64,000 nucleotides of DNA from Agathobacter ruminis (lineage in GTDB: Bacteria; Bacillota; Clostridia; Lachnospirales; Lachnospiraceae): the NCBI RefSeq assembly GCF_002735305.1, contig NZ_PDYG01000134.1, positions 1 through 64,000 of the forward strand, read 5' to 3'. The notes below the pieces were generated by a model. It ran no database searches, was not told the DNA's origin, and saw only the letters and a program-made list of their open reading frames with translations. The position numbers and the translations under genes were made by a program. Positions 1-59,020 of this stretch are shown piece by piece (the first letter of the stretch is position 1; each line of letters starts with the position of its first letter).

Positions 1-470
1 GATTGAGGTTGTTCTTTCAACTATTTGCACTTCTTCCGCACTGTCTTTTCCACGCAAACAGTCGACACCCCGTATCCCTTTCCTGGTTCATATAGACCGG
101 TGAAGGAACATCATTGGGAACGCGCTTAGTAAAACAGAAGTCGGTTTTGCGAAGCGCCCGATACGAGCCGCCACGGATGGCGGCGAGAGTCGATGGCGTC
201 CCGGATGGACGCTCTGAGACGGTGTCGGGCGCTCAAAACCGGCTTCGTTGTTTTACTTAGCAAGTGGACAGTGTTCCGCACCGGTCTATATGAACAGGAA
301 AGATATACGATACATCTTTATGTGTTTGCGCCGAAAAGACAGTTTGTCGAAATGCAAAATCGGTGAAAGGACAACCTCTTAAAGCTTGTGCGGCTTTGGA
401 GAATCTATGCCTTGACACCTATCGTTTGAGGGCAGGGAGGCAAGGGGCGGGGAGGGAATGGGACGGCAGG
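1..470. repeat. Giant imperfect palindrome, copy 1 (left end cut by window)
   Basis: A long inverted repeat folds on itself. The outer arm at 1-49 pairs imperfectly with 330-378. The flanking CATATAGACCGG pairs with CCGGTCTATATG (277-293). Stem P1 at 128-149 pairs with 234-258, and P2 at 151-164 pairs with 221-234. The tip carries two hairpins: GCCGCC/GGCGGC at 167-184 and GCGTCC/GGACGC at 196-212. The core is about 90% identical, in the same orientation, to copy 2 at 47852-48427. It is related in fold and conserved motifs to copy 3 at 44886-45521, read on the minus strand. The outer right arm continues homology to about 460, and the left arm runs out of the window. There is no ORF of its own. 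It could be a structured RNA or a palindromic mobile repeat; which one is unknown. Confidence 0.8.
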
Positions 471-42869: not shown

Positions 42870-44024
42870 ATGGAACAAAAATATGATGTCATAATTGTCG
42901 GGACAGGCGCAGCCGGCTTGTTTTGCGCCCTGAGTCTGCCACGGAACAAAAAAATATTATGTATTTCAAAGGATGCGCTGGATGGAAGCGACAGCTTCCT
43001 TGCACAGGGCGGAATCTGCATGCTGCGCGATGAGTCAGACTATGATTCTTATTTCGAAGATACCATGCGCGCGGGACACTATGAAAACCGCAAAGAATCC
43101 GTGGAAATCATGATCAGAAGTTCGCAACAGATTATCCGCGATCTGGTCGGATACGGTGTGGAATTTGAACAGACAAACGGTGAATTTTTGTTTACGCGTG
43201 AGGGCGCTCATTCCAACAATCGCATTCTCTTTCATGCGGATGTGACAGGACGCGAGATTACAAGCAAATTGCTGGCGCGAGTACAGGAATTGGACAATGT
43301 CACCCTGATGGCGCACACCACGATGGTGGAGCTGGCACTGGCGCTCTATCATGATGTCCGCCTGGAGAATTGTGATTATGTCCAGATTCATCCGACGACT
43401 TTATTCACGAGACAAAACGGACGCAGTTTTTTGATTTCCGAATCGGTACGCGGAGAAGGTGCAGTACTGCGTGACAAGGACGGCAACCGTTTTACGGATG
43501 AACTGCAACCACGCGATGTGGTCAGTGCAGCCATCTATGCAAAGATGAAGGAACAGGGAACGGAACATGTGTGGCTTGATTTTTCTCCGATTCCAAAGGA
43601 GGAAATTCTCAATCATTTTCCGAATATCTATAAGCACTGTGTTGAGGCTGGCTACGATCCGCTGACCGACTGGGTTCCGGTGGTTCCGGCACAGCATTAC
43701 TTTATGGGCGGTATTTATGTGGACAAGGACAGTCGCACGACGATGAAGCATCTCTATGCAGTCGGTGAGACCAGCTGCAACGGTGTCCATGGACGCAACC
43801 GTCTGGCCAGCAATTCATTGCTGGAGAGCCTTGTGTTTGCAAAGCGTGCCGCAAATGATATCGCAGCACAGAACAATTTTGAAAAGGCAGAACATTTTGA
43901 AGATTTGGTAAATATTGACGGCTACGAAGATCTGCCGTCAATCATGGAATATTACCATGCAATGGTAGTGAGCGAAATCAAAAAAGAGGCAAGATTACGC
44001 GCACAGAAGGAGGCAACAGCATGA
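42870..44024 (+). CDS. nadB: L-aspartate oxidase with an internal in-frame deletion
   Basis: 384 residues. It should oxidise aspartate to iminoaspartate with FAD for NadA. Present: the N-terminal FAD motif VGTGAAGLFCALSL, LAQGGICM, VQIHPTTLF, SESVRGEGA and HGRNRLASNSLLES. The sequence passes directly from AHTTMVEL to ALALYHDVRLENC. The family has about 55-60 more residues there, including the ATGG FAD-contact motif and the GDALA helix. The frame is kept. Without that block FAD binding should fail, so activity is doubtful. It overlaps nadC by four bases. Confidence 0.85.
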   Translation: MEQKYDVIIVGTGAAGLFCALSLPRNKKILCISKDALDGSDSFLAQGGICMLRDESDYDSYFEDTMRAGHYENRKESVEIMIRSSQQIIRDLVGYGVEFEQTNGEFLFTREGAHSNNRILFHADVTGREITSKLLARVQELDNVTLMAHTTMVELALALYHDVRLENCDYVQIHPTTLFTRQNGRSFLISESVRGEGAVLRDKDGNRFTDELQPRDVVSAAIYAKMKEQGTEHVWLDFSPIPKEEILNHFPNIYKHCVEAGYDPLTDWVPVVPAQHYFMGGIYVDKDSRTTMKHLYAVGETSCNGVHGRNRLASNSLLESLVFAKRAANDIAAQNNFEKAEHFEDLVNIDGYEDLPSIMEYYHAMVVSEIKKEARLRAQKEATA

Positions 44025-44878
44025 ACCGGATTACAATGAAATTAAACGCAGATGAACTGATTATGATGGCACTAAGAGAGGACATTTCCAGTGAGGATGT
44101 GACCACGAATTCCGTGATGCCGGAGGCAACACCGGGAGAAGTCGATTTGATCTGCAAGCAGGATGGCATCATCTGCGGAATGGAAGTTTATAAGCGTGTC
44201 TTTGAACTGCTCGATGAAAAGACAGAGGTGGAAGCATATGTAAAAGACGGCGATGCCGTCAAAGCGGGACAGCTTATGGCAAAGGTAAAAGGAGATATTC
44301 GTGTCCTCTTATCCGGAGAGCGTGTAGCACTCAACTATCTGCAGCGTATGAGCGGAATCGCAAGCTATACCCATGAAGTCGTACAGCTTCTGTCAGGTAG
44401 CAAAACAGTATTGCTTGATACCAGAAAGACTACGCCGAATATGCGCATCTTTGAAAAATATGCAGTAACCTGTGGCGGGGGACAAAACCATCGATACAAT
44501 CTTTCTGACGGAATCCTCCTGAAAGACAATCACATCGGTGCGGCAGGTTCCATCACAAAGGCCATCGAAATGGCAAAGGCTTATGCGCCATTCGTGCGCA
44601 AAATCGAGATCGAAACAGAAACACTTGACCAGGTGCGCGAAGCGGTAGAGGCCGGCGCCGACATTATCATGCTCGACAACATGGATGTTGATACCATGAA
44701 GGAAGCTGTTCGCATCATCGACGGCCGCGCCCAGACCGAGTGCTCCGGCAATGTCACCCGCGAGAACATCCACAACATCATCGCAAGCGGAGTGGATTTC
44801 GTCTCCAGTGGAGCGCTGACGCACTCTGCCCCAATCCTTGACATTTCCATGAAAAACCTGCACGCTGTTCACGCATAG
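44021..44878 (+). CDS. nadC: Nicotinate-nucleotide pyrophosphorylase (quinolinate phosphoribosyltransferase)
   Basis: A 285-residue NadC converting quinolinate and PRPP to nicotinate mononucleotide. It has ALNYLQRMSGIASYTHEVV, LDTRKTTPNMRIFEKYAV, NHRYNLSDGILLKDNHI and IMLDNMD. It is complete and normal in length. It ends eight bases before a giant palindrome begins. Confidence 0.95.
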   Translation: MNRITMKLNADELIMMALREDISSEDVTTNSVMPEATPGEVDLICKQDGIICGMEVYKRVFELLDEKTEVEAYVKDGDAVKAGQLMAKVKGDIRVLLSGERVALNYLQRMSGIASYTHEVVQLLSGSKTVLLDTRKTTPNMRIFEKYAVTCGGGQNHRYNLSDGILLKDNHIGAAGSITKAIEMAKAYAPFVRKIEIETETLDQVREAVEAGADIIMLDNMDVDTMKEAVRIIDGRAQTECSGNVTRENIHNIIASGVDFVSSGALTHSAPILDISMKNLHAVHA

Positions 44879-44885
44879 CAGCCCT

Positions 44886-45521
44886 TTTTGCAGACACAGG
44901 CCAGGCCGCCCCGAGCCGTCATTGCCATTCATATTCTGATTTGTTTCATGCATCCTCGCACCATGGCCCGGTAAGTGCTTCACAGTTTTGCGAATATTTC
45001 AGGTTTTCAATATGCAAAAGGCGAGCATCACACATGTGTCTTTTGATGAATGAACCATTTGTAATTTATTGATATTATGTACTCCTCATCTAAGGGATAC
45101 CTGGGTTCAGACTCCGTTTGCCAAGTGAAATAACAAAATGAGTTTTGTGTTTATAGGCACCATGCATTACGCAACGTCGTGTTGCAATCGCATTTGCGCC
45201 GCCTTCCGTGGCGGCGCATGCCTATAAACATCAAAACTCATTTTTATTTCACTAGGCTCACTTCGATTCACCCGGGTATCCCTTAGATGAGAAGTACATA
45301 TACGAAAGTTTTGGGTGTCCGCCAACCATAAAACTTTTTTCAAAATTGTACAGGCATTCAAAAGACATATGTCAATCAGGATGCGAGCTTTTGCATATAT
45401 GAAAACCAAAATATTCTTGCAAAGTGAAGAACTTACCGGGGCACGGGGGAGGATGTTAGGCAATAACATAAACTGTGAATGGTAACGACGGCTCGGGTGT
45501 GGCCTGTTCTGTGTGGAAAAG
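44886..45521. repeat. Giant imperfect palindrome, copy 3 (core on minus strand)
   Basis: The whole nadC-GH3 interval is one inverted repeat of about 636 bp. Outer arms: CCGAGCCGTCATTGCCATTC (44913-44932) against the same word at the far end (45475-45494, minus strand). Middle arms: CATCTAAGGGATACC on both sides. Stem P1 at 45124-45147 pairs with 45232-45253. Read on the minus strand, the tip has the hairpin GCCGCCACGGAAGGCGGC (45198-45215) and a second hairpin GCAAC/GTTGC. These, and the words AGTRAAA...GTTTTG / CAAAAC...TTTYACTT and CTTRGCAA..GGA, align with copies 1 and 2 even where stem bases differ. There is no ORF. The right end lies about 60 bp before the GH3 TATAAT box (45581-45586). 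Confidence 0.82.
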
Positions 45522-45628
45522 TTCGCACTGCAGGGAAGAATCATCGCAAGTATTCGGTAGAATCGGGGTCTGTTTTTTCATATAATGGAACGACAAAAAT
45601 GAGGTCGGCTAGAAAGGATGGACGGCAT

Positions 45629-47770
45629 ATGAGCGAAGCGACGAGACAGCGTGCCAAGGAGCTTGTGGCGCAGATGACGCTAGAGGAAAAGATGGGGCAG
45701 ATGCTGCATCACGCTCCGGCGATTGAACGGCTGGGGATTTCGAAATATTGCTGGTGGAATGAGGCTTTGCATGGCGTGGCAAGAGCCGGGGATGCGACAA
45801 TGTTTCCGCAGGCGATTGCGCTTGGAGCAACCTTTGATGAGGAATTGCTGCACGAGATTGCAGATGTGACAGCAACCGAGGGGCGCGCGAAATACAATGC
45901 ATTTGTGAAGCACGGCGATCATGATATTTACAAGGGGCTGACTTACTGGGCTCCGAATATTAATATTTTCAGGGATCCGAGATGGGGCAGAGGCCATGAA
46001 ACCTATGGCGAGGATCCGTATCTGACGGGACAGCTGGGCATGGCATTTGTCAAGGGCCTGCAGGGAGATGATCCGGATGAGCCAAAGGCAGCGGCATGCG
46101 CGAAGCACTTTGCGGTACATTCGGGACCGGAGGCTGACCGCCATCATTTTGATGCAAAAGTATCTAAGCAGGATCTGTATGATACCTATCTGTATGCATT
46201 TAAGCGGCTGGTGAAAGACGCAAAGGTCGAAGCGGTTATGGGTGCCTACAACCGTGTGAACGGCGAGCCTGCATGCGGAAGCAAGACTTTGCTGAAGGAC
46301 ATTTTGCGTCGCGACTGGGGATTCGAAGGCCATGTGGTTTCCGATTGCTGGGCCATCAGAGATTTCCATGAGAATCATAAGGTGACAGGCTGTGAAGTGG
46401 AATCAGCAGCGATGGCAGTCAATAACGGATGTGATCTGAACTGCGGCTGCGTATTTGAAAAACTGATTTACGCATACAAGGCGGGACTGGTCAAAGAGGA
46501 GACGATTGATGCCGCTGTGGAGCGACTGATGGATCTGCGCTTGCGTCTGGGTACGCTGGCGGAGCGCGGAAGCAAATATGACACGATTCCGTATGATGTG
46601 GTCGAATGTAAAGAACATATTGATCTGGCGGTGGATGCGGCAAAACGCAGTATGGTTTTGCTCAAAAATGACGGTATTCTGCCGCTTTCCGTGGATTCGT
46701 TGAAAACCATTGCCGTCATCGGTCCGAATTCCAATTCGCGTGCGGCTTTGACCGGCAATTACGAAGGCATTTCTTCCGAATATATTACGACACTTGAAGG
46801 AATCAAAGCATATGTGGGAGACGATGTGCGCGTTTATCATGCGGACGGTACACATTTGTGGAAAGACCGTATGCATGTACTGAGCGAGGCACGCGATGAT
46901 TTTGCGGAAGCAATGACGGTTGCAGAACTTGCGGATGTGGTCGTGATGTGTCTTGGACTGGATGCCACCATTGAGGGAGAGGAAGGCGATGCCGGCAATG
47001 AATTCGGCAGCGGAGACAAGAAAGGCCTGTCTCTTCCGGGATTGCAGCAGGAATTGCTTGAGACGATCACCGCAATCGGAAAGCCGGTTGTATTGGTGGT
47101 TCAGGCCGGATCTGCACTGGATCTGACATGGGCACAGGAACATGTATCGGCAATCCTTGACTGCTGGTATCCGGGTGCGCGCGGTGGCCGCGCCATCGCA
47201 CAGGTACTGTTTGGCGAGGATACCCCAAGCGGTAAGCTGCCAATCACATTTTATCGGAGCGATCGGGATTTGCCTGCATTTTCGGACTATGCGATGCAAG
47301 GCAGAACATATCGTTATTTTGAAGGAGAACCGCTGTATCCGTTCGGATATGGATTGAGTTATAATACAATCACCTATCAGGATGCAAAAGTGGATCGCAC
47401 GCAGGCGGCAATCGGAGATACGGTGACTGTGACGGCCACGGTGACCAATCATGGCAGATATGCACAGCATGAGGCGGTACAGCTTTATGTGAAAGATCTC
47501 GAAGCGTCGACGCGGGTCCCAATCCGCAGTCTGCGCAAGGTGAACAATGTTTATCTGATGCCGGGCGAGACAAAAGAAATCAGCATTACGCTGACGGAGA
47601 GAGATTTTGCAATCATCGATGAAAAAGGAAAGTGCATCGTAGAACCGGGTGCATTCCGGATTTCTATCGGCGGTCAGCAACCAGATGCCAGAAGTACAGC
47701 ATTGACGGGGCAGACCTGTGCATACTTCGAAATCACATTGACCGGAGCCTGCAAAGAAACAGAATATTAA
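45629..47770 (+). CDS. GH3 family glycoside hydrolase (beta-xylosidase/beta-glucosidase type), intracellular
   Basis: 713 residues: a GH3 N-domain with RDPRWGRGHETYGEDPYL and the nucleophile Asp in GHVVSDCWAI. The C-domain has VVMCLGLDATIEGEEGDAGN, and a fibronectin III-like domain (about 600-700) follows. No signal peptide is present. Most similar in motif style to BxlB-type xylosidases, so it would finish xylo-oligosaccharides from the GH43/GH5 enzymes. The ATG at 45629 is used; the 50-codon longer open frame crosses the TATAAT box and the palindrome end. Its TAA stop starts a three-hairpin remnant. Confidence 0.9.
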   Translation: MSEATRQRAKELVAQMTLEEKMGQMLHHAPAIERLGISKYCWWNEALHGVARAGDATMFPQAIALGATFDEELLHEIADVTATEGRAKYNAFVKHGDHDIYKGLTYWAPNINIFRDPRWGRGHETYGEDPYLTGQLGMAFVKGLQGDDPDEPKAAACAKHFAVHSGPEADRHHFDAKVSKQDLYDTYLYAFKRLVKDAKVEAVMGAYNRVNGEPACGSKTLLKDILRRDWGFEGHVVSDCWAIRDFHENHKVTGCEVESAAMAVNNGCDLNCGCVFEKLIYAYKAGLVKEETIDAAVERLMDLRLRLGTLAERGSKYDTIPYDVVECKEHIDLAVDAAKRSMVLLKNDGILPLSVDSLKTIAVIGPNSNSRAALTGNYEGISSEYITTLEGIKAYVGDDVRVYHADGTHLWKDRMHVLSEARDDFAEAMTVAELADVVVMCLGLDATIEGEEGDAGNEFGSGDKKGLSLPGLQQELLETITAIGKPVVLVVQAGSALDLTWAQEHVSAILDCWYPGARGGRAIAQVLFGEDTPSGKLPITFYRSDRDLPAFSDYAMQGRTYRYFEGEPLYPFGYGLSYNTITYQDAKVDRTQAAIGDTVTVTATVTNHGRYAQHEAVQLYVKDLEASTRVPIRSLRKVNNVYLMPGETKEISITLTERDFAIIDEKGKCIVEPGAFRISIGGQQPDARSTALTGQTCAYFEITLTGACKETEY

Positions 47771-47806
47771 CTCAGTCGGAGTACAAGCTCCGCGAGCGAG
47801 TCTTGA
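47768..47806 (+). repeat. Three-hairpin element, remnant D
   Basis: TAACTCAGTCGGAGTACAAG then CTCCG equals the first 25 bases of copy A and then jumps to CGAGCGAGTCTTGAC, its last 15. About 85 bases are lost between short repeats (GCTCCG, CGCGAG). Like copy A, it begins on the TAA stop codon of the preceding gene. Confidence 0.85.
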
Positions 47807-47818
47807 CTCTGCAGATGA

Positions 47819-47851
47819 AAAAAGCCCGTGGATCTCCACGGGCTTTGTCTT
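47819..47851 (+). terminator. Intrinsic terminator of the GH3 gene
   Basis: AAAGCCCGTG (47821-47830) pairs with CACGGGCTTT (47837-47846), with A and T runs at the sides. Confidence 0.85.
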
Positions 47852-48427
47852 CATGCCCCACGCCCCCCGTCCCGGCTCCCTTTACCCCCGCTCTTCACAC
47901 GATAGGCATGGAAGCTTGGATTCGCTCAAGGCGTACGCTGCTTCAAGAGGTTGTACTTTCACCGATTTTGCACTTCGACAAACTGTCTTTTCATCGCAAA
48001 CACCCGAAAGTCCTGATTCCTTTCCTGGTTCATATAGACCGGTGAAGGAACATCATTGGGAACGCGCTTAGTAAAACAGAAGCCGCTTTTGCGAAGCACT
48101 CGATACGAGCCGCCACGGACGGTGGCGAGAGCCGATGGCGTCCCGGATGGACGCTCTGAGGCGGTATCGAGTACTCAAAAGCGGCTTCGTTGTTTTACTT
48201 AGCAAATGGACAGTGTTCCGAACCGGTCTATATGGGACAGGAAAGCGATTTGAAACACTTCAAGGTGTTTGCGCCGAAAAGACAGTGCGGAAGAAGTGCA
48301 AATAGTTGAAAGAACAACCTCAATCAAAGAAGCGGCGTACGCCTTCGTTGCGAATCCTGCTTCCCAATGCCGTGTGTGAAGAGCGGGGGTAAAGGAAGCC
48401 GGGAACGGGGGCTGGGCATTGCATGAG
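47852..48427. repeat. Giant imperfect palindrome, copy 2 (complete)
   Basis: One 576-bp inverted repeat fills the interval. The outer arms CCCTTTACCCCCGCTCTTCACAC (47878-47900) and their complement at 48370-48393 pair almost perfectly. The next arms are 47949-47993 with 48274-48322. P1 is at 48071-48091 with 48176-48200. The tip hairpins start at 48109 and 48138. Stem bases differ from copy 1 in a paired way: CGGTTTTG/CAAAACCGG there, CGCTTTTG/CAAAAGCGG here. The core has the orientation of copy 1, but the outer arms match copy 1 only after reverse-complementing. Confidence 0.85.
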
Positions 48428-49262: not shown

Positions 49263-49275
49263 TTCTATGGAAAAA

Positions 49276-49362
49276 ACAGGGGAGCTTGTCCGGCAGGCTG
49301 AGAGGAAGTAATCAAACTTCGACCCTTTACCTGATACGGATAATGCCGTCGTAGGAAGTCAT
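49276..49362 (+). ncRNA. TPP riboswitch (THI box)
   Basis: Canonical elements in order: ACAGGGGAGC, GGCTGAGAGGAAGTA, GACCCTTTACCTGATACGGAT, AATGCCGTCGTAGGAAGT. The aptamer binds thiamine pyrophosphate and here controls thiE-thiD-thiC through the following terminator. Confidence 0.97.
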
Positions 49363-49379
49363 TACACTGAGATTTTTTG

Positions 49380-58946: not shown

Positions 58947-59020
58947 TCGGCGTGACAGGATTTGAACCTGCGACTTCTACGTCCCGAACGTAGCGCTCTA
59001 CCAAACTGAGCCACACGCCG
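58947..59020 (-). tRNA. tRNA-Pro(CGG)
   Basis: On the minus strand the acceptor CGGCGTG pairs with CACGCCG. The D-arm region GGCTCAGTTTGGTAGAGC, the anticodon stem CTACG/CGTAG with loop TTCGGGA (anticodon CGG) and the T-loop GGTTCAAATCC are all standard. The discriminator is A, and CCA is not encoded. Confidence 0.97.

Follow-up and report, generated by a model that had tools for sequence, protein, structure and literature searches.

The three giant palindromes in the 64,000-nucleotide stretch of Agathobacter ruminis DNA analyzed here (the window) are likely to be dispersed, non-coding MITE-like elements that carry the TwoAYGGAY motif at their tip, with IS66-type mobilization of one subtype (type A) and with arm covariation that stems from processes acting on the DNA. 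The motif at the core was known before, and its carrier is the new part. For an orphan Rfam RNA that has lacked an explanation since 2010, this would provide a genomic identity, that of non-autonomous transposons with a candidate transposase.

End-to-end palindromes were confirmed at all three sites, with pairing across 44910-45497 in copy 2 and 47853-48419 in copy 3, and the single-stranded DNA folds of these two copies lie far below those of dinucleotide shuffles (z of -20.75 and -23.46, respectively, with 0 of 100 shuffles equal in either case). Copy 1 is truncated because contig C133 begins at position 1 of the window, and the tracing of its arms covers 5-378 only. The copies have the conserved tip described in the first-pass annotation of this DNA, and the stem bases quoted there as changing in pairs are readable in their sequences. 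The annotation could not place the tip in a known family and proposed a comparison with ROOL, GOLLD, OLE and HEARO. A scan of the whole window against Rfam instead identified all three tips as TwoAYGGAY (RF01731), each above the gathering cut-off, and otherwise returned only a tRNA and a TPP riboswitch, with no match to those four large RNAs over gathering score. Copy 2 represents type A, and copies 1 and 3 represent a second subtype, type B, with the core on the opposite strand (Table 1). The gene for a nadC-like protein at 44021-44878 of the window encodes a product with at most 90% identity to Pseudobutyrivibrio.

Table 1. Features of the window. Positions are those of the forward strand.
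Feature	Position	Strand	Remarks
Copy 1, type B palindromic element	1..378	+	cut by contig start
Copy 1 TwoAYGGAY core	114..271	+	57.7 bits
Copy 2 left flank	44910..44920	+	pairs with 45487-45497; palindrome extends beyond termini
Copy 2, palindromic element of type A, as bounded by its terminal inverted repeats	44921..45486	-	strand of core
Copy 2 left terminal inverted repeat	44921..44934	+	degenerate ATTGCCATTCATAT; 4 mismatches to GTTACCATTCACAG, by eye
Copy 2 TwoAYGGAY core	45109..45268	-	RF01731, 75 bits (gathering 43)
Copy 2 right terminal inverted repeat	45473..45486	-	exact GTTACCATTCACAG
Copy 2 right flank	45487..45497	+	pairs with 44910-44920
Copy 3, type B palindromic element	47853..48419	+	
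Copy 3 TwoAYGGAY core	48056..48213	+	54.1 bits
TPP riboswitch	49268..49374	+	Rfam scan
tRNA	58947..59020	-	Rfam scan

The family of three copies recognized at first is present, but it is only part of a larger one, as the window's own genome (G000; 2.86 Mb in 134 contigs) holds 25 RF01731 matches at E<=0.001, of which 24 exceed the gathering score. Matches were found in 13 of 60 genomes, this one included, all within the genus (13 of 36, compared to 0 of 24 elsewhere in the order), and scored copies reach at least 38 per genome, the per-genome counts being lower bounds. In a sample of the phylum with at most six scored candidates per genome, 51 of 398 genomes match at E<=0.001 and 34 of 398 pass the gathering score; 29 of these loci were fetched and 26 examined, and the palindrome extends past the core in 23 of the 26. 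A search of plasmid and phage sequences with copy 2 as query gave no match. The available text on RF01731 (Weinberg et al. 2010, PMC2864571) describes the same core as that of all three window copies; the family covers a 168-position tip only, and the long arms, termini, duplications, inversion and core-less derivatives reported below apparently fall outside that description and its model. No description of the element as mobile was found in the open literature, searched without supplements.

The boundaries of type A elements are well defined, since similarity between copies ends sharply at GTTACCATTCACAG on both sides. With these ends as anchors, 22 loci yielded 16 copies with both ends, in which the 8-bp stretches immediately outside the ends match as direct repeats at 84 of 128 positions, compared to 39.9±6.1 for permuted partners. 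For each of two lengths, 16 offsets were tried and the best one was retained, which lies directly at the ends. Exact 8-bp duplications are present in four of these copies (L005, TTTCTAAC; L289, AATAAAAG; L290, AAAACTCT; L292, GTAAAGAG) and absent in the other 12. Direct repeats were detectable only with terminal repeats as anchors; a general test for direct repeats at the ends of the palindromes revealed nothing in G000, in the sister species G014 and G016, or in G028, with the exception of one G014 copy. The left terminus of copy 2 was missed by an end scan allowing three mismatches because it is too degenerate, and the flanks of this copy are inverted, with no direct duplication seen. The first-pass annotation had named a match to a described Rfam family or to a MITE as grounds against its reading, and both were observed: the Rfam match at the tips, and MITE-like ends in the subtype of copy 2. 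Type B copies 1 and 3 have the same architecture and core as type A, and neither the comparison of copies nor the direct-repeat test identified consistent ends for them. Copy 3 starts directly after a terminator-like hairpin with a T-run (47823-47846) located behind a GH3-like gene, and the start of the elements at L019, L237 and L240 likewise abuts a terminator-like hairpin with a T-run.

An end search of 62 genus genomes revealed, in a congener, an element of 2210 bp (L307) that carries GTTACTATTCACAG at either end, a sequence identical to the type A terminus GTTACCATTCACAG but for one base. Its 523-amino-acid protein scores over the cut-off of the Pfam DDE_Tnp_IS66 model (E 5.8e-12) and reaches 149 bits on the NCBIfam IS66 model, below the cut-off of 180. 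No direct repeat was found at the ends of L307 itself; a 44%-identical relative, L320 in G062, is bounded by similar ends and has AATTGCA on either side. In G031, which harbors type A copies, a decayed IS66 piece is also found next to the same terminus. According to the available text of PMC11946415, insertions of the IS66 family are flanked by 8-bp repeats, as in type A, and the ends of full IS66 elements begin with GTAAGCG, whereas those of type A and L307 start with GTTAC. Type A elements further differ from IS66 elements in being non-coding and nearly all palindromic, with a conserved structured core. Searches of G000 with the L307 protein or PF03050 as query found no IS66 gene, which leaves no enzyme at hand in that genome. 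Type A copies look like MITEs moved in trans: copy 2 and its relatives share their ends, the subtype shows 8-bp duplications, and the enzyme acting on these copies would be an IS66-family DDE transposase that recognizes GTTACYATTCACAG ends and duplicates 8 bp. Short elements with GTTACTATTCACAG ends and a different palindromic interior are also present in G018 (L309-L311), where they show exact 8-bp duplications, and in G010 (L308).

The same core is found within several kinds of ends, as indicated by the different sets of termini in type A, in G023 and in G028 and G021. The congener G023 harbors 11 copies with ends TTCGGGTGTCAAAAGG and 9-bp direct repeats, which are identical at 91 of 99 positions, a count reached in 0 of 50000 permutations (67.1±4.8). 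A search for these ends in 40 genomes revealed no pair with the spacing of an autonomous element. The third set of ends is common to G028 and G021, and no target duplication was detected at these ends in G028. Target duplications of 8 or 9 bp point to the staggered cut of a DDE-type enzyme. Together with the IS66 element whose ends match those of type A but for one base, they make it extremely unlikely that the palindromes are hairpin DNA processed in single-stranded form, for example by a REP-type (Y1/HUH) transposase, even though the entire element is a hairpin and the elements are intergenic, some of them directly after a terminator. REP/BIME and ERIC sequences likewise occur as many intergenic palindromic copies; the elements described here are much longer, and have terminal repeats and target duplications.

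Type A elements also occur in core-less form. A pattern search identified further inverted pairs of type A ends in G000 and G031, and the ten pairs read are centre-deleted type A elements of 109-463 bp without the core. Two 233-bp core-less copies in G031 have a common deletion junction (229 of 234 positions identical) and different flanks, which suggests that the core-less form has itself spread and that the core is dispensable in cis. Deletions of this kind would remove the tip of elements already inserted.

The relationship between the two arms was analyzed by counting single and concerted changes. The analysis covers 933 arm columns, after removal of 71 in which the two arms differ consistently. 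Single changes number 84 and concerted changes 16, compared to 0.63 concerted changes expected under independence; nine of the 16 fall in two elements and five are transversions. The paired changes reported in the first-pass annotation are therefore genuine. For the arms, their interpretation there as selection on a fold is at odds with the transversions and with two further lines of evidence, mismatch composition and core orientation. Arm mismatches over 144 elements are evenly divided between G-U (324) and A-C (341; p 0.53), and the respective counts are 78 and 35 in G016, 114 and 142 in G000, 45 and 43 in G014, and 31 and 36 in the phylum set. There is thus no consistent G-U excess in the arms, which is not as expected if one RNA strand were under selection. 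Moreover, in 6 of 21 orthologous elements of G014 and G016, whose flanks have diverged by 3.05%, the core is inverted, its identity being 92-99% in the reversed orientation and 73-83% in the direct one. This set retains 21 of 22 pairs, L131/L150 (18425/1500) having been dropped for its poor match in either orientation, and, as G014 is a draft, some of the inversions could reflect errors of assembly. In the same two species, divergence is 6.2% in the outer arms, roughly double that of the flanks, and 2.3% in the core (80/3544 compared to 722/23705 in the flanks; Fisher p 0.009).

Taken together, the inverted cores and the lack of an overall G-U excess favor template switching at the DNA level rather than selection for an RNA fold. 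Such switching between inverted repeats homogenizes arms and inverts spacers (PMC8604942), and it can mimic compensatory RNA changes (PMC8794818), as stated in the available text of both sources. We infer that it has acted on these arms: after insertion, the palindrome would be reworked during replication as one arm is copied onto the other and the centre is sometimes inverted. Because template switching matches the arms to each other, they can covary without selection on an RNA. The alternative that the whole palindrome of about 0.6 kb is transcribed as a large structured non-coding RNA with a selected fold would account for the concerted changes, for the stable folds of copies 2 and 3, and for the G-U excess seen in G016. 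It is nevertheless very unlikely in view of the even mismatch counts overall and the A-C excess in G000, the inversion of the core at orthologous sites, the rapid divergence of the outer arms, and the loss of the core or of part of an arm in many copies. Covariation in long palindromes is usually taken to indicate an RNA fold but can come from DNA template switching, and the asymmetry between G-U and A-C mismatches, combined with core inversion, provides simple discriminators between the two.

Insertion polymorphism was also sought between G014 and G016, by searching 21 unpaired sites and reading nine of them. The 'absent' site retains part of the element in eight of the nine, indicating losses rather than insertions, and no clean empty site was obtained among the sites read. 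Three sites were also compared: L172/L138 is ambiguous, with GAAAAT as a short repeat at its junction, L147/L137 represents a partial deletion, and the left side of L145/L127 has been lost. The alignment of L136/L215 is unusable.

The core itself shows a strand asymmetry. AYGGA occurs 2.24 times per core on the plus strand and 0 times on the minus strand in 21 G000 copies, and 1.73 times compared to 0.08 on the opposite strand in the phylum set; in 10 G023 copies there are 1.00 and 1.00 on the two strands. Only the core, and not the arms, folds better on the AYGGAY strand, as it does in 24 of the 26 loci of the phylum set and in 19 of 21 G000 copies. The preference may be helped by the choice of strands with an RNA model, and it fails in G028 (4 of 9) and G004 (0 of 3). 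This preference would also fit the large non-coding RNA considered above. G-U and A-C mismatches in the core are only suggestive: 76 and 47 in stem P1 for all related copies and 19 and 10 for the phylum set, and 15 and 2, and 1 and 1, respectively, in the hairpins. The core, which is conserved in many genomes throughout the phylum, may be a real RNA, and a real RNA fold is plausible for these approximately 160 nt only. In the available text of Weinberg et al. (PMC2864571), TwoAYGGAY is considered probably an RNA and probably not cis-regulatory.

Binding of CsrA has been proposed for TwoAYGGAY in the available text of PMC4333381, and the core might accordingly be a CsrA-binding RNA spread as repeats, in which two putative AYGGA loops titrate CsrA to the benefit of the host or the element. 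Consistent with this proposal are the published motif match, the confinement of AYGGA to one strand in G000, and the presence of a gene for CsrA in G000 and, across the genus, in 36 of 40 genomes. However, where elements and CsrA were both searched for, in 36 genomes, CsrA is found in 12 of the 13 that have elements and in 20 of the 23 that lack them, so that its presence does not discriminate, and core inversion and core loss speak against tight maintenance. We thus regard this explanation as rather unlikely. A broader version of it, in which TwoAYGGAY is a selfish RNA module residing in unrelated transposon termini as a mobile CsrA sponge, its arms matched by template switching, is unlikely; the same reading would encompass the IS66-like ends with 8-bp duplications, the other ends with 9-bp duplications and at least one more set, at dozens of copies per genome.

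Several smaller observations accompany the MITE-like elements favored here. Several G000 and G031 contigs begin inside an element (L294-L297, L299-L301), such that the palindromes probably disrupt short-read assembly. At the start of contig C99 of G000 (L302, positions 1-280), a tandem repeat of about 54 bp, GAGCCAAAAAACCTAGAGTTCGTATGCATCCCAGCGCGGCAAAAGCATACGAA, continues into one end of an element of type A. In G023, mini-hairpins made of the termini of that genome, with little or nothing between them, resemble REP hairpins (L272, L270, L273, L278), and another small repeated hairpin, of approximate sequence GAGGGTCAAAAGGTATTTTGCCCCTC, is found near G014 and G016 elements (L216, L166, L162).
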